Below are positions 8,419 through 36,555 of a DNA stretch of 46,909 nt, in pieces. The position numbers and the translations under genes are program-made. The stretch's first letter is position 1. The number at the start of each line of letters is the position of its first letter. A model generated the notes under the pieces. The model ran no database searches. It was not told where the DNA came from and saw nothing but the letters and a program-made list of their open reading frames with translations. The DNA is from Candidatus Zixiibacteriota bacterium. Its GTDB lineage: Bacteria; Zixibacteria; MSB-5A5; UBA10806. The stretch is from positions 1-46,909 of the forward strand of contig JAHEDG010000001.1 in the NCBI GenBank assembly GCA_024641335.1, given 5' to 3'.

Positions 8419-10542
8419 CTACTTTAACAATATCATTTTAATGCTTCGGGAATCGGTGTCAGTCCGCAAGCGGGCGAAATAAATTCCCGACGGGTAATCT
8501 TCGGCGTTCCAGATTATGGAATGCGATCCGGCCGGCTGAAGTCCTTCCACCAATCTCTCTGTTCTTCGTCCCAGGAGATCGTAGATTTCGATGACCACCT
8601 CGCTTTCGGCAGGCAGATCATAACCGATGCTGGTGGAGGCGTTGAACGGATTGGGGTAATTTGGGGTCAGATGGATTTGAGTCGGAAGTTCGTTTTCATC
8701 CTCGATACCGGTTTGGGGGCCGAAGTGCATTATCTTCATGGAAACCAGGTCGGCCACATAGATATGATCACCATCGACAGTAATATTGGCGGCCGATCCG
8801 GGAGTATCGTAATTTCCAATCAAATCCGGGTTGGTAAGGCTGGAAATGTCGATGACCTCCAATCCGTTATAGGAATCGCCTACCAGGGCGTAATTGCCGG
8901 AGACGGCGACTCCCAACGCCTGGCCTTCAGTCATTACTCCTCCCAATATCGCGGGATCGGCGGGATTTGAGACGTCGATAATTCTGAAGCCGGAGTAACC
9001 GTCGGCTAAGAAAGCGGAATTGCCGGAAACGAATACGTCGTAGGCGTATCCGGGCGTATCGAATCCTCCGACTCTTCTCGGATTCGTGGGTTCGGAGACA
9101 TTAATAACAAGAAATCCGGTGTGAGCGTCCGCTACGTAAACGTGATCGCCGGAGAGATACAGCGCCTCGGCCGAGCCGGGGGTATCATATCGTCCGAGTA
9201 AAACAGGATTGGTCGGATCGGAGATGTCCAGAATGAGGACTCCGAAAGAACCATCGGCAACATAAGCATAGTTGCCATTCAGGAACAGATCGGATACCCA
9301 GCCGACGGGGTTATAGACGCCGGTAAGTACAGGCCGGGTCGGGTCGGCTATATTAATTATCTGCATCCCCTCTTCTCCATCGGCGACATAGGCGTATTGA
9401 CCGTCAACTACAACGGCAACCGCGTTCCCGGGGGTATCGATAGTTCCCACGATTACCGGATCGTTCGGCATGGATATATCCAGAATTTTCAATCCGTCGA
9501 AATCGTTGGCTACGTAAGCGAAATTTCCGGAAACGGCTATATCCATCACCCACTCGGGTGTTTCATAGCTTCCGGCGAAAATCGGTTCGGCCGGATCTGA
9601 AACTCCGACTATATAAAGTCCGTTATCGACATCGGAGGCGTAAAGGCGATCCCCGGCGAGAAAGATATTATTGGCCCGTCCGGGAAAAGCGTAGATTCCG
9701 ATTTGATTCGGATTGGCCGGGTCGCTGATATCATAAGTTCTGAGTCCGTAAAACCAGTTGATTATATAGGCGTAATCGTCCTCGACAACAATGCCGTCGA
9801 TCCTGTCGAAAAATCCGAAAGTGCCGAGCAAAACCGGCTGCGACGGAGTCGAAACATCTATCATGCTGATATCGAAAGTCAATCCTGCCAGGTAAACGAT
9901 ATTATCCGAAACAAAAACATTGCTTGATGAGCCCGCATTATATAGACCGATAAGTGTCGGATTGGCGCGATCGGTAATATCGACAATCTCCAGACCCACG
10001 TCGGATGTGGCCAGGTATGCGTAGTTGCCGGAGACATGAACATCCAAAGTATATCCGGATGCGTAATAATTCCTGGCATAAGTCGGGTTCGCGGGATCGG
10101 AAACATCCATTATCAGCATTCCATCTATGGAATGGGCTACGTAGGCGTATCCGTCGTCAACGAAGATTTCTTTGATCAACGCCAGGGAGAAAAAGCTGGA
10201 TGTATAAACCGGCTCGGCCGGGTCGGAAACGTCGATTATATGAACGCTGTCGGCTACCAGGTAGGCGTACCCATCATATACGTCGATCTTCGATCCTCTG
10301 CCCTGCACATAAAATTTACTTACCATAACGGACTGAAGCGGGTCGGTAACGTCAAATATGACCATGCCATCGAAAAACGAGCAATAAGCGTAATTGCCGA
10401 TAACTTCAACGTCGGTCAGCCCGCTCCAGATCTCCGAGCCGACATATTCGAAATTTTGGGCATCAGAGATCCCCGCGAGCAGAACCGTCGAAAGCGCGAT
10501 TAGTAATGCCGGCAGGAGAATTCTCTTGGCAGAATTGATCAT
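8419..10542 (-). CDS. Secreted LVIVD-repeat propeller with type IX-style C-terminal sorting domain
   Basis: A 707-aa protein. GGGAGG lies five bases before the ATG. A signal peptide (~1-28, ending in SDA) is followed by about 13 repeats of ~43 residues with the core V..SGNYAYVAD...GL.I.DISDP..P..IG.YDTPG, the LVIVD repeat, which builds a beta-propeller. The last ~80 residues are the sorting-type tail: LTPNYPNPFNAST, VIEIYDLLGRRTERL, AGSHSIIWNAEDYPSGIYFARL, KMILLK. A paralog at 27316 has the same repeats but ends in a dockerin. Role: probably a surface or matrix-associated binding protein; no catalytic motif is visible. A promoter-like element lies at 10616-10645. Confidence 0.9.
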   Translation of the reverse strand: MINSAKRILLPALLIALSTVLLAGISDAQNFEYVGSEIWSGLTDVEVIGNYAYCSFFDGMVIFDVTDPLQSVMVSKFYVQGRGSKIDVYDGYAYLVADSVHIIDVSDPAEPVYTSSFFSLALIKEIFVDDGYAYVAHSIDGMLIMDVSDPANPTYARNYYASGYTLDVHVSGNYAYLATSDVGLEIVDITDRANPTLIGLYNAGSSSNVFVSDNIVYLAGLTFDISMIDVSTPSQPVLLGTFGFFDRIDGIVVEDDYAYIINWFYGLRTYDISDPANPNQIGIYAFPGRANNIFLAGDRLYASDVDNGLYIVGVSDPAEPIFAGSYETPEWVMDIAVSGNFAYVANDFDGLKILDISMPNDPVIVGTIDTPGNAVAVVVDGQYAYVADGEEGMQIINIADPTRPVLTGVYNPVGWVSDLFLNGNYAYVADGSFGVLILDISDPTNPVLLGRYDTPGSAEALYLSGDHVYVADAHTGFLVINVSEPTNPRRVGGFDTPGYAYDVFVSGNSAFLADGYSGFRIIDVSNPADPAILGGVMTEGQALGVAVSGNYALVGDSYNGLEVIDISSLTNPDLIGNYDTPGSAANITVDGDHIYVADLVSMKIMHFGPQTGIEDENELPTQIHLTPNYPNPFNASTSIGYDLPAESEVVIEIYDLLGRRTERLVEGLQPAGSHSIIWNAEDYPSGIYFARLRTDTDSRSIKMILLK

Positions 10543-25361: not shown

Positions 25362-26948
25362 ATGAAAAACACAATATTGTCTACCTGGATAGTCTTGAGC
25401 TGCATGGCCTCGCTATCCTATTCCCAAACTCCATTTAATATCGTTCCCGACTGGCTGTCGGTCGAAGACAGCTACTACGGTACAGGATGCGGAATAGACG
25501 ATATCAACGGCGACGGCTATCCTGATCTGGCGGTTTCCAACGGCAACGATATGCTCCAGGCCCCCAACTTAGCCTATATCAATTCCGGCGGGAATATGCC
25601 GAATACCGCCGGCTGGGTGTCGTCCAATAGTCTCTATTCGGGACATTGTGAGTTGGGAGACTATGATTCTGACGGTTTTCCCGAATTAGCGGTGGCCAAC
25701 TATATCGCTCCCGGCTGGGGTCCGGAGCTTCTCAATCTCTATGAGAATATCAACGGAGTCCTGGAATCATCGCCTTCCTGGGTTCCGCCCGATTCGGTTC
25801 ATTCGTTCAGATTGACCTGGGGGGACGCCGATTCCGACGGCGATTTAGACCTGGCGGCGGCCACCGGAGAACCGTATTACAGTTCCCTCGAATCCAACCT
25901 TATTTTTTATAACCAGGATGGAATCCTTCAGACTGAACCGGGCTGGGCCTCGGCCGATTCCGACGGTTGTCTCGATGTCCATTGGGTGGATATCGATCTC
26001 GACGGCGATCTGGACCTGGCTTTCTGCGAATCCATCGGACCGATCAAAATATATTTCAATTATGGCGATTCTATCGGTACAAATCCGGGCTGGCAATTAT
26101 CTGAATCTGATAATTATAATTCCATGGATTTCGGCGATATCGACGGCGATGGTTATCCGGATATGGCCGTTGCCGCCAATACTCAATCGGGCGGAACCGG
26201 CCGGTTCAAGCTATTTCATAATAGTTCGGGGATTCCGGATAACCAGCCTTTCTGGCAATCCGCGAGCACCGGCTACGGATCGGAAGCGGCGCTTTCCGAT
26301 CTCGATAACGACGGCGATCTCGATCTGATCTGCGGCCGATGGTGGGGGCTGATCGATATCTACCTGAACAATAATGGCGCGTTTAACAGCCAGCCCGACT
26401 GGAGCAGCTCGTCGGAATACAACAGCGTTGTAGAAAATATAGTTTTCGGCGATTTCAACCGCCGCGCGGAAAGACGTCGATCCGCCCGATACGACGCGTC
26501 GGGGAAACGGCTGTATTATCTGCCTGTTCGGCAAATAGCGGGTATCGATTCGGTCATGGCCGACGGCGCGATTCTGGAAATCGGGCAATACTGCTGGAGT
26601 CTCTGGGACGGTTGGGTATCGATGGGAATCACTCCTTTGGATTCGGTAAGGATATTCTACCGATACTCTCGATCGAGGGACATGGCCGTCTCCAACTGGG
26701 ATCGGGAAACCTATATATTTTATAATACTACGGTTGGGTATATAGCGGGCGACGCCAACGATTCCGGGACTCTTAACGGGCTTGATGTTGTCTATCTTGT
26801 GGCATATCTCAAAGGCGAAGGACCGGCGCCGGAGCCCTGGCTCTCCGGCGATTCCAACGGCAGCTGCGATATTAACGGGCTGGATGTTATTTTTCTGGTA
26901 AATTACTTTAAGGGCGGTCCTGAACCGGTTTTGGGAGATTGCGATTAA
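25362..26948 (+). CDS. FG-GAP-repeat secreted protein with C-terminal dockerin
   Basis: A 528-aa protein starting MKNTILSTWIVL. The Shine-Dalgarno is weak, but the signal peptide begins here, so the frame start at 25305 is rejected. The signal peptide ends SYS-QTPFN. Seven FG-GAP blades follow with calcium loops (DINGDGYPDL, DYDSDGFPEL, DADSDGDLDL, DIDLDGDLDL, DIDGDGYPDM, DLDNDGDLDL). The C-terminus is a type I-like dockerin: two loops, GDANDSGTLNGLDVVYLV and GDSNGSCDINGLDVIFLV. The last blade reads NRRAERRRSARYD where a calcium loop is expected; a one-base gain and a one-base loss would restore AEDVDSARYD. It probably docks to a cohesin such as the one at 29354. Confidence 0.85.
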   Translation: MKNTILSTWIVLSCMASLSYSQTPFNIVPDWLSVEDSYYGTGCGIDDINGDGYPDLAVSNGNDMLQAPNLAYINSGGNMPNTAGWVSSNSLYSGHCELGDYDSDGFPELAVANYIAPGWGPELLNLYENINGVLESSPSWVPPDSVHSFRLTWGDADSDGDLDLAAATGEPYYSSLESNLIFYNQDGILQTEPGWASADSDGCLDVHWVDIDLDGDLDLAFCESIGPIKIYFNYGDSIGTNPGWQLSESDNYNSMDFGDIDGDGYPDMAVAANTQSGGTGRFKLFHNSSGIPDNQPFWQSASTGYGSEAALSDLDNDGDLDLICGRWWGLIDIYLNNNGAFNSQPDWSSSSEYNSVVENIVFGDFNRRAERRRSARYDASGKRLYYLPVRQIAGIDSVMADGAILEIGQYCWSLWDGWVSMGITPLDSVRIFYRYSRSRDMAVSNWDRETYIFYNTTVGYIAGDANDSGTLNGLDVVYLVAYLKGEGPAPEPWLSGDSNGSCDINGLDVIFLVNYFKGGPEPVLGDCD

Positions 26949-27315
26949 AAATAACTTGCCATAGGCAGCCCGATAAACTATTTTTGAACCGGCCAGCCCG
27001 AACGACTCTTCTATTCGGATCGTCGGGATGGGTCGTAATTGTCTTCTTAATGACATGACGGAATATTTCCGTCCGACGCTGATCCGTTGAATAGGTCTTT
27101 TGTGATTGATTTTGTTAAGAGCATAAGGAGTCGAATGAGCTCCGTATCCCGATTTATACCGGCGGCTGAATCCGCTCGCCAAAGGAATCTGGAATTTTCC
27201 TCAACAGGTTTTCGGTTTTTGATTATAAGCATGATAAACAGACGATATCCAAAATGAAAGATTTTGATGATAATGCCGTTTTGTGGCTGAAACTTTCTAA
27301 AAAAAGGAAAATGTT
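26949..27315. other. 367-base intergenic region
   Basis: No gene is supported. A weak imperfect hairpin near 26997-27031 (CCCGA-ACGA against TCGT-CGGG with a bulge) may end transcription of the dockerin gene but lacks a U-run. AAGGA lies before the next ATG. Minus-strand frames here look like antisense shadow. Confidence 0.5.
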
Positions 27316-29319
27316 ATGAAACGTCTGATTACTGCCTTGGTATTTATTCTGCTGGCATCGACCTCTTTCGCTCAAAACGTTGATTTTCTGGCTTCGACCG
27401 CCTGGACGGAAGCGAAAGATATCAGAGTCTCCGGCAACTATGCCTATGTAACTTTTTTCTCGGGGCTGGGGATATTCGATGTCTCCGATTTAACAGATCC
27501 GATTCTGATCTCCACGTTGGGATTTCAATTTAACTGTCTGGGTATGGATAAGGTCGGCAACTACCTCTATATCGCCAATGAAGAAGCCGGTTTGAAAATC
27601 ATAAATATCTCCAATCCCTACCTGCCGACTATCGCCGCCTCGAGACCTCTGAACGCCACGGCGGTGGATGTCTCGGTATCCGGCAGCTACGCATTCGTGG
27701 CCTGTCTTAATACGGGGCTTTATATTGTTGATATTTCCGACCCGGTACCTCAAATTGTAGGAGCCTATGATACCCCCGGGGAAGCATGGGGTGTTAAGGT
27801 TGTCGGCTCATACGCCTATATTGCGGATGGCGACAGCATGCGGATTGTCAATATATTCAATCCCGCTTCTCCGTACAGGGTAGGCGCTTACGGTACCGCG
27901 GGATTTGCCGTATCTGTGGCCGTTCAGGCTAATTACGCGTATATCTCGGATACCTATAACGGGATGGTTATAGTCAATATAAACAACCCCGCGAATCCCA
28001 GTTATGTGGGGCGGTATGCCGGGCCGTATGTCAGCAAGGTCCGGGTCTCAACCAATTTTGCCTATTGCGCCGATTACTCAAACGGGCTTGATATTGTCAG
28101 CATTACCAATCCCGGAAGTCCTTTCAGGCTTGGGAATTATCCCACTCCCGGCACGGCTCGATCGCTATGGGCTACACCCAATTATGTGTTTATGGCGGAC
28201 GGCCAGGCCGGTATGGAGATATTCAATGTCAACGATCCTACATTACCGGTACCGGCCGGTGATTTTCAAACATCATATGTAAGAAAATGTGTGGCCTCCG
28301 GCAATTACGCCTATCTGGCAACCTGGGAAACTGGTCTTCAGATAATCAATATTCAGGATACCAATGCCCCTGTATGGCTTAGTTCGGTCGATACGCCCGG
28401 CAAAGCCGAGGATATCAAAGTCGTTGGCAATTATTGCTTTATCGCCGACAGGCAGAACGGGCTAATCTCTATAAACGTCTCCAATCCCGCCTTGCCGGCG
28501 ATCTCCGACAGCTACGATACACCCGGTTTCGCCAAATCCCTGGCTGTTTTTGGAACTTATTGCTATGTTGCCGATTATAATTCCATACAGATTTTCAATG
28601 TGGGAAATCCCGGCAATATCATTTTTGTCGGAAGTTTTACTCCGGGAGGCAACCCTGTGAATGTTCATGTGGATGGTTCCAGACTTTATGTAGCCGCCGA
28701 AAGCGGAGGGTGCCATATATTCGATCTGACCGATCCCACTATTCCGGCGTTGCTCGGAACATATCTGTCCACCGGCAGCGTGAACGTGGTAAAAGCAGAG
28801 GGGAACTTCGCTTACCTGGCCGATGATCAGGATGATGTGGTAATTATCAACGTCTTAGATCCGGTCAACCCGACTTATCTTTCGGATTATTCATTGTCGG
28901 ACGACGTCTCGGATCTGTTTTTTGCGTCCAACTACCTCCATGTGGCTCATGAATACGGAGGTTACACGGTTTTAAACGTTATAGACAAATCGAATCCGTC
29001 AAGAAGCGCGACCTATGATACGCCCGGTATCGCCGTGGGGGTATTCGTGTATGACGAAGTTACTTTTGTTTCCGATTACTACTCGCTGCAGTTATTATAT
29101 TTCCAGGATTTTTCGCCCGGCGACGCCAACGGTGATGGCCAGGTTAATGGTCTCGATGTCGTATTTCTGGTGAACTATCTAAAGAGTATCGGTCCGGCGC
29201 CAGACCCGCTTTTGCGCGGGGACGCCAATGGAGACTGTAATGTCAATGGTTTGGATGTTGTGTACCTGGTGAATTACCTCAAGGGAACCGGCCCGGCGCC
29301 CGTGAGAGGCAACTGTTAA
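27316..29319 (+). CDS. LVIVD-repeat secreted protein with C-terminal dockerin
   Basis: A 667-aa protein with signal peptide (MKRLITALVFILLASTSFA, then QNVDFL). About twelve LVIVD repeats (IRVSGNYAYVTFF...GIFDVSDLTDP; VSVSGSYAFVACLNTGLYIVDISDP) build a propeller closely related to that of the 707-aa protein on the minus strand. The C-terminal ~65 residues are a dockerin with two calcium loops (GDANGDGQVNGLDVVFLV and GDANGDCNVNGLDVVYLV) and ends PVRGNC. It is followed 34 bases later by a cohesin-like gene. Expected behaviour: a secreted propeller fixed to a partner by a dockerin-cohesin contact. Confidence 0.9.
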   Translation: MKRLITALVFILLASTSFAQNVDFLASTAWTEAKDIRVSGNYAYVTFFSGLGIFDVSDLTDPILISTLGFQFNCLGMDKVGNYLYIANEEAGLKIINISNPYLPTIAASRPLNATAVDVSVSGSYAFVACLNTGLYIVDISDPVPQIVGAYDTPGEAWGVKVVGSYAYIADGDSMRIVNIFNPASPYRVGAYGTAGFAVSVAVQANYAYISDTYNGMVIVNINNPANPSYVGRYAGPYVSKVRVSTNFAYCADYSNGLDIVSITNPGSPFRLGNYPTPGTARSLWATPNYVFMADGQAGMEIFNVNDPTLPVPAGDFQTSYVRKCVASGNYAYLATWETGLQIINIQDTNAPVWLSSVDTPGKAEDIKVVGNYCFIADRQNGLISINVSNPALPAISDSYDTPGFAKSLAVFGTYCYVADYNSIQIFNVGNPGNIIFVGSFTPGGNPVNVHVDGSRLYVAAESGGCHIFDLTDPTIPALLGTYLSTGSVNVVKAEGNFAYLADDQDDVVIINVLDPVNPTYLSDYSLSDDVSDLFFASNYLHVAHEYGGYTVLNVIDKSNPSRSATYDTPGIAVGVFVYDEVTFVSDYYSLQLLYFQDFSPGDANGDGQVNGLDVVFLVNYLKSIGPAPDPLLRGDANGDCNVNGLDVVYLVNYLKGTGPAPVRGNC

Positions 29320-29353
29320 TAGAGGAATATTCCGAGAATAAGAAGGAGGTAGT

Positions 29354-29902
29354 TTGAAGAGAATTATCGCGTTTGGTATGATTCTCGCGCTGACCGTGAT
29401 AGTTTCGGCCGAGGACAAGAAAGAAGAATATAAAGGTAACGTCTGCTATACCGAGAGCGTCGAGGTTAGCAAGGGAACATCGTTCCCTGTGCGGGTATTT
29501 GTCAACAATACCGACACTCTGGCCGGAATGCAGGTACCGATATATTACCGTTCGGAGGATGTCGATTTGGTATGCGATTCGGTTTCTTACGTCGGTTCGC
29601 GCTGCGAAGCGTTTTCGCTTAGCCATTCGATGATCGAGCCTGTCGGCAAAGTAGTATTTTTCGCCTTTATCTCCATGACCGATCCGGCGCGGGAGGTTGC
29701 CCCTCTTTATCCGGCCGACGGACTGGTAGCCACTTTATGGTTTACAGCCGGCAAGGATATTAAATCCGGCAAGGTGGAATTATACAGCGGCCCTAACGCT
29801 ATCTATCCGCACGACAAGATAGATTACAGCTATCTTTTCTGGACTCCGGGGGCCGAACAGAAAGATTGCCTTTATAGACCAGGCTATATAACCATAAAGT
29901 AA
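29354..29902 (+). CDS. Secreted cohesin-like protein
   Basis: A 182-aa protein starting at TTG with GAAGGAGG four bases upstream. The signal peptide (MKRIIAFGMILALTVIVSA) precedes a single domain with the cohesin pattern: VEVSKGTSFPVRVFVNNTDTLAGMQVPIYY, VDLVCDSVSYV, VVFFAFISM, DGLVATLWFTAGKDIKSG. Cohesins are nine-stranded beta-sandwiches that bind dockerins. It is soluble, with no anchor or sorting tail visible, so it may be a free adaptor. The gene directly follows two dockerin proteins, which supports a functional cohesin-dockerin set. The domain call is by pattern; sequence in this family is very variable. Confidence 0.65.
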   Translation: MKRIIAFGMILALTVIVSAEDKKEEYKGNVCYTESVEVSKGTSFPVRVFVNNTDTLAGMQVPIYYRSEDVDLVCDSVSYVGSRCEAFSLSHSMIEPVGKVVFFAFISMTDPAREVAPLYPADGLVATLWFTAGKDIKSGKVELYSGPNAIYPHDKIDYSYLFWTPGAEQKDCLYRPGYITIK

Positions 29903-29918
29903 TGACGATTTTATTTAA

Positions 29919-29950
29919 AGAAGGCGGGATCGAAATCCCGCCTTTTTTTA
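29919..29950. terminator. Strong bidirectional rho-independent terminator
   Basis: AAGGCGGGAT (29921-29930) pairs with ATCCCGCCTT (29935-29944), loop CGAA, followed by T7 on the plus strand. Minus-strand flank (CTTCTTTAAATAAAAT) is also T-rich, so it can serve the convergent CPBP gene. Confidence 0.85.
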
Positions 29951-33397: not shown

Positions 33398-34948
33398 ATG
33401 ATGAAATTGAGAACTTTCGGGCTTCATTTTTCGATTCTTTTACTGTTGATTTTTAATGATAGATTTACGTTCGATCCGGCTGGTGAGCAGGGGGAATGCA
33501 CTATAGGCGTTTTCTCGGGTTTGATCACCGCTGACGGCCGTCCAATGCTTTGGAAAAACCGCGATGTTACCAATCCGGTGCAGAAATTCTGCTTTTTCGA
33601 GCCCGATCCGGGCAGCGATTCGGCTCTTTACTCGTTTTTAGGCAACGTATATTCCAGCGATACCAACAGGGTTTACATGGGGATAAACGATGTCGGTTTT
33701 GCCATAATTAACTCCAACAGCTACAACCTGAACGACAGCGTGGCCCAGGGCATCAACGACGGCGATCTGCTCAGGCTGGCTCTGGAGCGATGTCGTACCC
33801 TGGCCGATTTCGAGGATCTTCTGGATCTAACCGCCATCAAGGGAAGAGAGGATTGTTGGAATATCGGGGCTTTGGACGCCGAAGGAGGCGCGGCCTTATA
33901 TGAATGTTCCAATTATAGTTACGTCAAGTTCGACGCCAATAATGAGATGCAGGCTCCCGGCGGCATGATCTTAAGGGCGACATATTCTTTATCCGGCGGA
34001 ACCCGTCGTATCGGGTTCGAGAGATATAAAAGGGTAACCCATCTGGTTTACGATAGGGATAATGAAACTCCGATCGACGCCAAATTCGTTTTGCAAACAC
34101 TGGCCAGGGATATCGCCAACCCTCTGGGCGATCCGTATCCGCTTCCTTACACAGGGCGGCAGAACGGCCGTCCCGAAGGATATATTCTCAGCCGGGATGT
34201 GACCATCAACAGGACCGTATCCAGATCCTGTATGGTGATCAGGGGCGTAAGGCCGGATGAAGACCCCAGGCTGGGCACCGCTTTTTGCATGATCGGCCCT
34301 CCGGTGATTTCGGTGGCTTTTCCTTTATGGGTCTATTCCAGAGAGGTTCCGCAGATGCTGAATACAGGAGAAGAAGTGCCTATGTATTCCCAGATCCTGC
34401 GGCATAATGCCGAACTTTATCCGAATCCCAAAGATCCAATCTATCTGGACAGCCGATATCTGGTTAATCACGAGGGTACCGGTTTGTTTGAATATACCCT
34501 GCCTTTGGAAAGAGAGATACTTCAAGCCGCCGACGAGCATGTTTTTGAGTGGGACAATCAAATACCGACTCCAGCCCAGGCGGCCGCCGCGCAGAACGAT
34601 CTGGCCTATTATATTTTCGATTCATTCCTGAGCATACCAATCCTGCCTCTCGGGGTGGATGATCCTCCTGTTCCCGAGTCACCGAGGATCTCCAATTATC
34701 CGAATCCGTTTAACGCCGGCACTACTATTCAGCTGGATGGTTTCGGGGCCGATGACAATATCAGCATAAAGATCTTCGATCTTTTGGGTCGCCAGGTCAG
34801 GACATTCGACGCTATCGGCGGCCGGGACAGATTCATAAGCTGGGACGGACGGGACGGCTCCGGGAACTCGCTGCCGTCGGGATTGTATCTGATCAACACG
34901 AGAAGCCTGGAATTCTCATCTAACATTAAGACGCTCCTGCTCAAGTAA
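33398..34948 (+). CDS. Exported Ntn-type amidohydrolase (C45/choloylglycine hydrolase-like) with C-terminal sorting domain, copy 1
   Basis: A 516-aa protein. A hydrophobic signal (~9-20) is followed by GECTIGVFSGLITADGRPMLWKNRDV. Cys34, Arg/Asn-Asp in KNRD and the flow of the fold match Ntn hydrolases of the linear-amide type (acyltransferase C45, bile-salt or penicillin amidases), in which a propeptide is removed to expose the catalytic Cys. The last ~75 residues are the sorting tail: NYPNPFNAGT, ISIKIFDLLGRQVRTF, ISWDGRDGSGNSLPSGLYLI, KTLLLK. It opens an operon of four hydrolases; the second copy starts 17 bases downstream. Substrate (N-acyl amide, peptide-like or lactone) is unknown. Confidence 0.75.
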   Translation: MMKLRTFGLHFSILLLLIFNDRFTFDPAGEQGECTIGVFSGLITADGRPMLWKNRDVTNPVQKFCFFEPDPGSDSALYSFLGNVYSSDTNRVYMGINDVGFAIINSNSYNLNDSVAQGINDGDLLRLALERCRTLADFEDLLDLTAIKGREDCWNIGALDAEGGAALYECSNYSYVKFDANNEMQAPGGMILRATYSLSGGTRRIGFERYKRVTHLVYDRDNETPIDAKFVLQTLARDIANPLGDPYPLPYTGRQNGRPEGYILSRDVTINRTVSRSCMVIRGVRPDEDPRLGTAFCMIGPPVISVAFPLWVYSREVPQMLNTGEEVPMYSQILRHNAELYPNPKDPIYLDSRYLVNHEGTGLFEYTLPLEREILQAADEHVFEWDNQIPTPAQAAAAQNDLAYYIFDSFLSIPILPLGVDDPPVPESPRISNYPNPFNAGTTIQLDGFGADDNISIKIFDLLGRQVRTFDAIGGRDRFISWDGRDGSGNSLPSGLYLINTRSLEFSSNIKTLLLK

Positions 34949-34965
34949 ACTTGGAAAGTTCTGCT

Positions 34966-36555
34966 ATGACGTATTCAAAAGAACACCTTGGGTCGAGATA
35001 CTCTTGCCGGGCGGCGATATGGGGTCTTGCTATCGCCCTTTCGGCTTTCGCCGCGGTATCGGCTGAGGAAAATAGAGGCCTGCCGTTCGGCGAGTGCACC
35101 GTAGGAGTTTTCGGCGGATCGGTTACTGCCGACGGCCGACCGATATTATGGAAAAACCGCGATGTTACCAATCCCGATCAGCGGTTTATATATTATAATT
35201 CGTACGAAAGAGATGGTATTGTCACCATCCCGTTCATAGGCGACGTATACAGATCAGACACGACCAGGGTATATATGGGGGCCAATCTCGAGGGTTTTGC
35301 CATCATGAACAGCGATTCTTATAATCTCGATGATTCCCTTTCGACCGGCATAGATGACGGTACGATCATGCGTATCGCGTTGGAGACCTGTTCGAGTATA
35401 GCGGATTTCGGTCTTCTTCTGGATTCCACCGACGCCATCGGCAGGAAAGACTGCTGGAATTTCGGAGTTATGGACGCCTCGGGGACCTGCGCTATGTTCG
35501 AATGCCGGAACTACTCGTATGTATTGATTCTGCCCGAGGGTAATGATTCTCCCGATAACGGCATGGCATTGAGGGCCAATTTTTCCCGTACCGGCAATGA
35601 TCGTCAGGCCGGGCTGGATCGCTATAGGCGAGCGGTATACCTGACCGAAAACAGAATGAGAAGAGCTCCTGTGGATATCGAATTCGTGCTGCAGAAACTA
35701 GTTCGGGATCTGGGTAATCCTTATGACGATCCGTACCCGTTGCCGTATAACCGTTCACAGGCCGACGGCCCGATCGGATATATATTCGATTACGGCTGCA
35801 CCATTTCCAACAGGTGGACGACATCGGCCGTAGTTATCAAGGGAGTGGCTCCCGGCGAGGATCCTGTCCTAACCACCATTTTCGCGGTGCTGGGCTCTCC
35901 GGTCATCTCTATGGCTTATCCGCTGTGGGTGGCCTCGGGCAGCGTGCCGGTCTATTTGTCTCGCGGCCAGGGGGCGCCGATGTACGAATACTGCGTCGAT
36001 AGAAAAGCCAGACTGTATGACAATCCGGACGCTTTTTTTCATCTCAACAGCAAAGCGCTTTGCGACGACGACGGAACGGGCATATATACTTATTCGTTTT
36101 TGCTGGAAAGATGGGGGATAAACAACGCCGAACGGCTTCTCTCATCGTGGAGAGCCGACAGTCCGGAGACTCAGGATGTATCTTCCGAGCAGCTCAGGAT
36201 AGCCCGCGCGCTTTTCACCGGATACCAAAGAGAGACGGCCGAATACCTGACCGAAGCCGAACCGGATATAGATATTTTCCCGCGGACGATAGGGCTTTCC
36301 AATTATCCCAATCCTTTCAACGCCTCAACAGTGATAACATACAACGGTACATGGCAAGGCAGCGACCCGATTGTCAGGATATATGATTCTATGGGCAGGC
36401 TGGTAAATCTGCTATCGGCCGGCGGTGTATCCGGTGGGAGCATAATTTGGGACGGTCACGATCTGTTCGGGAAAAGAGTTTCTTCCGGCGTCTATTTTTA
36501 CACGCTCGACGCTGGCAGTTTTAGTACTTCCAATAAAATGACGTTAATCAAGTAA
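34966..36555 (+). CDS. Exported Ntn-type amidohydrolase with C-terminal sorting domain, copy 2
   Basis: A 529-aa protein; ATG at 34966 has GGAAAG eight bases upstream and is preferred over the in-frame TTG at 34951. The signal segment (~14-32) is followed by GECTVGVFGGSVTADGRPILWKNRDVTNP, with Cys44 as the predicted nucleophile. It aligns along its length with the preceding protein (conserved SDTxRVYMG, DDGxxxRxALE, GRxDCWNxGxxDA, DPYPLPY, PVIS-AxPLWV) and ends in the same tail (NYPNPFNASTVITY, VRIYDSMGRLVN, SSGVYFYTLD, KMTLIK). The pair arose by tandem duplication with clear divergence, so different substrates are possible. Confidence 0.78.
   Translation: MTYSKEHLGSRYSCRAAIWGLAIALSAFAAVSAEENRGLPFGECTVGVFGGSVTADGRPILWKNRDVTNPDQRFIYYNSYERDGIVTIPFIGDVYRSDTTRVYMGANLEGFAIMNSDSYNLDDSLSTGIDDGTIMRIALETCSSIADFGLLLDSTDAIGRKDCWNFGVMDASGTCAMFECRNYSYVLILPEGNDSPDNGMALRANFSRTGNDRQAGLDRYRRAVYLTENRMRRAPVDIEFVLQKLVRDLGNPYDDPYPLPYNRSQADGPIGYIFDYGCTISNRWTTSAVVIKGVAPGEDPVLTTIFAVLGSPVISMAYPLWVASGSVPVYLSRGQGAPMYEYCVDRKARLYDNPDAFFHLNSKALCDDDGTGIYTYSFLLERWGINNAERLLSSWRADSPETQDVSSEQLRIARALFTGYQRETAEYLTEAEPDIDIFPRTIGLSNYPNPFNASTVITYNGTWQGSDPIVRIYDSMGRLVNLLSAGGVSGGSIIWDGHDLFGKRVSSGVYFYTLDAGSFSTSNKMTLIK

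Follow-up and report, generated by a model that had tools for sequence, protein, structure and literature searches.

In an uncultured Candidatus Zixiibacteriota bacterium, three neighbouring genes encode two exported beta-propeller proteins with C-terminal dockerins and a free-standing cohesin (P182). We see about an even chance that their products belong to a non-cellulosomal system of Zixibacteria in which proteins are attached through calcium-dependent cohesin-dockerin binding. Its support consists of the predicted cohesin fold, the dockerin sequences, the conservation of a gene pair, the joint presence and absence of the two domains across the class and an orthologue in which a sorting tail takes the place of the dockerin; the role of the propellers, the choice of partner, binding, calcium dependence and location at the cell surface are what we infer. 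The FG-GAP and LVIVD propellers would be Sec-exported binding or recognition heads, and their C-terminal dockerins would be attachment modules plugging into a cohesin. P182 would be a single-site cohesin, and because its gene lies 34 bp from that of the LVIVD-dockerin protein and shares a terminator with it, the two would be made together; most likely P182 captures this protein in a 1:1 ratio, as an adaptor or to retain it. Cohesin-like proteins with type IX sorting tails encoded elsewhere (contigs C31, C93 and C33) would act as surface anchors for other dockerin proteins. The best reading is that the system serves propellers and peptidases rather than cellulases.

The window is the whole stretch of DNA analysed (46,909 nucleotides), from contig C9 of a 2.86-Mb genome assembled in 98 contigs. 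The features of the locus are:

25362–26948, + strand: exported FG-GAP beta-propeller protein of 528 aa with a C-terminal type I dockerin (Pfam FG-GAP_3, E 1.2e-29, and Dockerin_1; orthologues)
26745–26945, + strand: dockerin of the FG-GAP protein, with two F-hand loops (27.5 bits in the genome search; sequence)
27316–29319, + strand: exported LVIVD beta-propeller protein of 667 aa with a C-terminal type I dockerin (Pfam LVIVD, E 5.3e-93; Dockerin_1, 1.7e-11; orthologues)
29116–29316, + strand: dockerin of the LVIVD protein (47.7 bits in the genome search)
29343–29349, + strand: Shine-Dalgarno motif AAGGAGG ahead of the TTG start of the cohesin gene (sequence; likewise arranged in locus L094)
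29354–29902, + strand: P182, a free-standing single-domain cohesin of 182 aa with a signal peptide, without tail and without dockerin (AF2 model, Foldseek against PDB, profile A6)
29917–29948, + strand: intrinsic-terminator-like hairpin and T-run at the end of the LVIVD-dockerin/cohesin unit (RNA fold −20.5 kcal/mol, z −4.6)

The cohesin gene (TTG, 29354) starts 34 bp downstream of the LVIVD-dockerin ORF, and the two propeller genes are separated by 367 bp, so the tight unit consists of LVIVD-dockerin and P182. The original prediction had placed a secreted cohesin-like protein 34 bases behind the second propeller, and both its coordinates and the signal peptide proved right. It had also found no glycoside hydrolase nearby, in agreement with the comparison of about 30 window genes with Pfam or PHROGs, in which no glycoside hydrolase family was recognised. 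A few kb upstream, the segment 11193–17799 (+) carries phage head genes, encoding a portal (E 1.5e-28), a large terminase (8.3e-29), a virion structural protein and a major head protein (2.4e-67); it is a prophage or gene-transfer block. On the other side, window positions 33398–36555 (+) encode acyl-CoA:6-APA acyltransferase-like proteins (AAT, PF03417) in tandem, which bear type IX sorting tails; next come a CBM56/sorting-tail protein and an M1 peptidase with a tail.

Read from ATG 25362, the FG-GAP-dockerin ORF gives 528 aa, equal in length to its orthologues in genomes G001 and G003; the mechanical ORF begins earlier, at TTG 25305. The Dockerin_1 score of this protein is 22.1 bits in hmmscan and 27.5 bits in the genome search, against a Pfam cut-off of 22.9. 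The LVIVD protein has 12 LVIVD stretches and a Dockerin_1 score of 44.6 bits, and its dockerin has the top score in the genome. Each window dockerin contains two complete calcium loops of the Dx[ND]xDGxxNGLD type, with NGLD at the recognition positions of both loops. Both are type I dockerins (PF00404) by the presence of two F-hand loops and a score above the cut-off, the FG-GAP one in the genome search only. Sec-type N-terminal signal sequences were recognised by eye on both propeller proteins. The original observation of two propellers with export signals that end in two-loop dockerins was borne out. The recognition residues are Gly-Leu, as opposed to the Ser-Thr of clostridial cellulosomal dockerins.

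The dockerin of the FG-GAP protein has a cysteine in loop 2 and another near its C-terminus. A comparison covering the dockerins at window positions 26745–26945 and 29116–29316 and those of loci L015–L021 and L052–L059 found a cysteine in calcium loop 2 (DANGDC) and one at the extreme C-terminus (GDC) in nearly all dockerins of the order; the dockerin of a giant protein encoded on contig C47 has neither. From the sequences, the two cysteines may well form a disulfide that clasps the dockerin shut.

P182 matches the Pfam cohesin family (PF00963) at E 0.058 and 14.0 bits, below the gathering cut-off of 24.1, so its sequence alone is weak evidence for a cohesin. A PF00963 match at E<=0.1 was obtained for 11 of 36 aligned relatives. 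Sequence searches of the PDB returned chance matches only with P182 alone and, with a 16-row profile, a single cohesin match at E 0.87; a 36-row profile retrieved Ruminococcus flavefaciens scaffoldin cohesins (E 0.007–0.03), with a flagellin-like protein alongside (0.035). The original prediction was to be given up if the 182-aa protein did not fold as a cohesin or had no predicted interface with either dockerin, and on the first point, the fold, it held. The AF2 model (pLDDT 76, pTM 0.75, from an alignment of eight orthologue sequences) has cohesins as all 50 of its 50 best Foldseek matches in the PDB, with E down to 2.7e-9 and TMt up to 0.79; as modelled, P182 clearly has the cohesin jelly-roll fold. 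The best match is Clostridium acetobutylicum CohA2 (6kgc, E 2.7e-9, TMt 0.79), and the matches include a non-cellulosomal cohesin of Archaeoglobus fulgidus (2xdh, E 3.4e-7, TMt 0.71) and an autonomous cohesin of R. flavefaciens (4n2o). The possibility that P182 is not a cohesin is ruled out by this fold search. Within the P182 family, a lipobox was seen by eye in a few cohesins (L059, L087 and L090), and the cohesins of G006 and G007 (L058:7005–7640 and L059:7240–7926) carry an insertion of about 34 residues in one loop, with two CxxC-like motifs, which resembles a zinc ribbon (Pfam ADK_lid, E down to 6.7e-12).

The association of P182 with the LVIVD-dockerin protein is conserved. The LVIVD-dockerin gene lies directly upstream of a cohesin gene in all seven genomes that have it (the source genome included; family f1, to which the source genome belongs, and its sister family f2), and its orthologues in the six other genomes are 52–73% identical. 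In the two loci for which it was read from the sequence, the spacing is 18–34 bp. An FG-GAP-dockerin gene precedes both genes in the source genome, G001, G003 and G006, and is thus less constantly present than the pair. The flanking genes are common to the members of f1 and different in f2 (e.g. rlmN upstream in G007), so the LVIVD-dockerin/cohesin pair has persisted while its neighbours changed. G005 and G008 keep the cohesin, directly behind rlmN, and lack LVIVD-dockerin; the cohesin is therefore not dependent on that one partner. Single cohesins of the P182 family are widespread across the class. At all six loci read elsewhere in the class (L067, L072, L082, L083, L086 and L091), a single-domain cohesin stands behind the gene of a TPR lipoprotein of about 500 aa, with no dockerin gene directly adjoining these pairs.

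A profile search of the genome gave 14 dockerin matches, on functionally mixed proteins. Besides the window pair, the carriers include an M14 carboxypeptidase, a sortilin/Vps10-like propeller, an Rhs protein and others, together with an M28-like peptidase, a subtilisin-like protease and a giant repeat protein assigned by reading the sequence. No GH family was matched by any dockerin protein whose sequence was read or scanned, and GH9, the family covered by the genome-wide GH search, was not found. About eight proteins are cohesin-like, and type IX sorting tails occur on several of them; the genome also encodes a homologue of SprA, the core of the type IX translocon. A P182 paralogue (31% identical) is encoded on contig C85, downstream of an Rhs-dockerin gene with one gene in between. 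Contig C31 (locus L014) holds a cluster of cohesin-like proteins: two of 277 and 279 aa with a cohesin and a sorting tail, one of 700 aa with three cohesin stretches, a dockerin and a sorting tail but without CBM3, and one of 250 aa in which a cohesin-like domain is fused to a dockerin. The sorting tails of this cluster are of the Por_Secre/FlgD type, and the cluster, on a contig of only 8.5 kb, is a probable scaffold locus. Further cohesin-like candidates lie on contigs C93 and C33. The cohesin counts made with profile A5 are approximate because this profile also matches a DUF1573-like protein (C9:107535, E 4e-9), which was read as a non-cohesin. Profile A6, used for the class-wide counts, finds only two P182-family members in the source genome and misses the C31 type.

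These counts bear on the original prediction of a small extracellular assembly of binding propellers rather than a cellulosome. The absence of a cellulosome context and the conserved neighbourhood agree with it, but the genome-wide domain count, with 14 dockerins and about eight cohesin-like proteins, goes against a self-contained cluster; a lone local cluster is ruled out. The presence of other cohesin-like proteins means that either window dockerin could bind another cohesin. In addition, all three proteins have Sec signal peptides and no type IX sorting tail, so they may reside in the periplasm as well as extracellularly. It is possible, with a probability well below even, that the window dockerins bind the sorting-tailed cohesins of C31 and other contigs instead of P182, and that adjacency to P182 reflects shared regulation or history. 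The Por_Secre/FlgD-tailed proteins of C31, one of them with three cohesin stretches and a dockerin, would suit such a role; Ca. Stygibacter has been inferred to have such a scaffold with a surface tail (PMC8542988), and P182 has neither a tail nor a lipobox with which to anchor a partner. Against this stands the pairing of LVIVD-dockerin with the 182-aa gene in seven of seven genomes from two families, at 18–34 bp in the two loci read. The proteins of the cluster would belong to a network of such plugs and sockets that extends across the class, is built in the style of a cellulosome and does not serve cellulose; a fit between the neighbouring dockerin plug and the P182 socket is likely.

The occurrence of the two domains was compared in the same 58 genomes of the class, with profile A6 for the cohesin and PF00404 for the dockerin. 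Both were present in 52 genomes, each with at least three dockerins, and the other six had no match to the P182-family profile and 0–1 dockerins. None of the 58 genomes was one-sided (cohesin without dockerins or the reverse), counting 0–1 dockerins as absent. The Fisher p value for co-occurrence is 2.5e-8, which overstates the evidence because the six joint losses fall in two families only (f4 and f5) and so represent few independent events. In genomes with both, the numbers of cohesins and dockerins are weakly correlated (Spearman 0.26, p 0.07). Genome G010 has LVIVD propellers and lacks both cohesin and dockerin.

This pattern is relevant to the suggestion, which we consider unlikely, that P182 has the cohesin fold without binding dockerins and is a periplasmic Ig-like/jelly-roll protein with another ligand. 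Such a role would be consistent with the cohesin genes that adjoin rlmN without LVIVD-dockerin in G005 and G008, with the single copies behind TPR lipoproteins, with the Pfam score of P182 under the cut-off and with the zinc-ribbon-like insertion in two f2 members. A structure prediction that showed no confident dockerin-cohesin interface can also be listed here, although it is a null result and does not speak against binding. In L094, the dockerin and cohesin genes are in one frame, and dockerin, linker and cohesin were folded as a single chain, with the TAA read as Gly; pTM was 0.48 and the packing was not confident, for a chain with a shallow alignment, a hydrophobic signal-peptide linker and no control pair. 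Both parts of this chain had the expected secondary structure, and its top PDB matches were cohesins only. However, presence and absence of the P182 family track dockerins in all 58 genomes, the gene adjoins dockerin genes in seven genomes, and related domains are fused to dockerins, all of which favours a dockerin-binding P182.

Dockerins and type IX sorting tails look like alternative, interchangeable C-terminal attachment modules, judged by one clear case and not by a survey. That case is a pair of FG-GAP orthologues: the propeller of G008 lacks a dockerin and has a Por_Secre tail at its end (E 9.1e-11), and its closest relative, in G006, with 60.7% identity across the propeller, has a C-terminal dockerin. 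In the window, an LVIVD paralogue (8419–10542) ends in a sorting tail. A more speculative idea, which we hold to be rather improbable, is that diderm Zixibacteria possessing a type IX translocon use the dockerin as a general surface tag in place of the type IX sorting domain: Sec-only propellers would reach or stay at the surface via sorting-tailed cohesins, and free cohesins such as P182 would be dedicated adaptors. On that tentative idea, the exchange on orthologous propellers would be the first trace of such tagging.

Cohesin-dockerin complexes are among the strongest protein pairs known and are a workhorse in protein engineering; to our knowledge, their use beyond cellulose degradation has been little described. 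The clostridial (type I) cellulosome shares the cohesin fold and the two-loop dockerin with the Zixibacterium, which differs in that GH9 was not found and that none of its dockerin proteins read or scanned is a recognised GH; on these two grounds a cellulosome was rejected. No CBM3 scaffoldin with several cohesins was met with in this genome, a fragmented assembly in which other scaffolds are possible. Non-cellulosomal cohesin-dockerin systems are already known (PMC6461901; PMC8542988), themselves inferred from sequence. In the planctosome of freshwater Planctomycetes (Nemodlikiaceae), exported proteins carry cohesins and dockerins, nothing points to cellulose degradation, and peptidases are among the dockerin carriers, as they are here (PMC6461901). 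The genome studied here is planctosome-like in combining dockerin-tagged non-GH proteins with cohesin-bearing adaptor or anchor proteins, but planctosome cohesins are located on large multi-domain anchoring/adaptor proteins, whereas here, in another phylum, a free-standing single cohesin lies beside propeller-dockerins. In the cellulosome-like complex of Ca. Stygibacter (Cloacimonadota), peptidases are among the exported enzymes that bear dockerins, and the C-terminal domain of a cohesin protein serves to attach it to the surface of the same cell (PMC8542988). That scaffold, a single protein of 3,755 aa, contains CBM2/CBM3, and GH18/GH57 are among its clients; neither such a scaffold nor such clients were met with in the Zixibacterium. 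The R. flavefaciens autonomous cohesin (PDB 4n2o; CohG/ScaG in 4wkz) is single-domain like P182 but belongs to a real cellulosome, and P182 has higher TM-scores to other cohesins, such as 6kgc. The A. fulgidus cohesin (PDB 2xdh) is, like P182, outside a cellulosome, but it is archaeal, and we know of no propeller-dockerin neighbours for it.

New here are the phylum, the position of a free-standing cohesin next to propeller-dockerins and the exchange of a dockerin for a sorting tail; none of the papers searched mentions both dockerin and Zixibacteria. LVIVD-dockerin and P182 provide a minimal test system, with one cohesin, one adjoining dockerin and seven orthologous pairs, and G005, G008 and families f4 and f5 are available as natural knock-outs. 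The exchange of dockerin for sorting tail on the same propeller makes the hypothesis of dockerins as surface tags directly testable.

Dockerins also occur in an internal position, between Rhs core segments, in Rhs-repeat proteins (L019:3393–5756 and L060–L062). Three loci of G008 have an Rhs-type gene with an internal dockerin and, at some distance behind it, genes for an LVIVD-type propeller that carries a sorting tail and for a P182-family cohesin.
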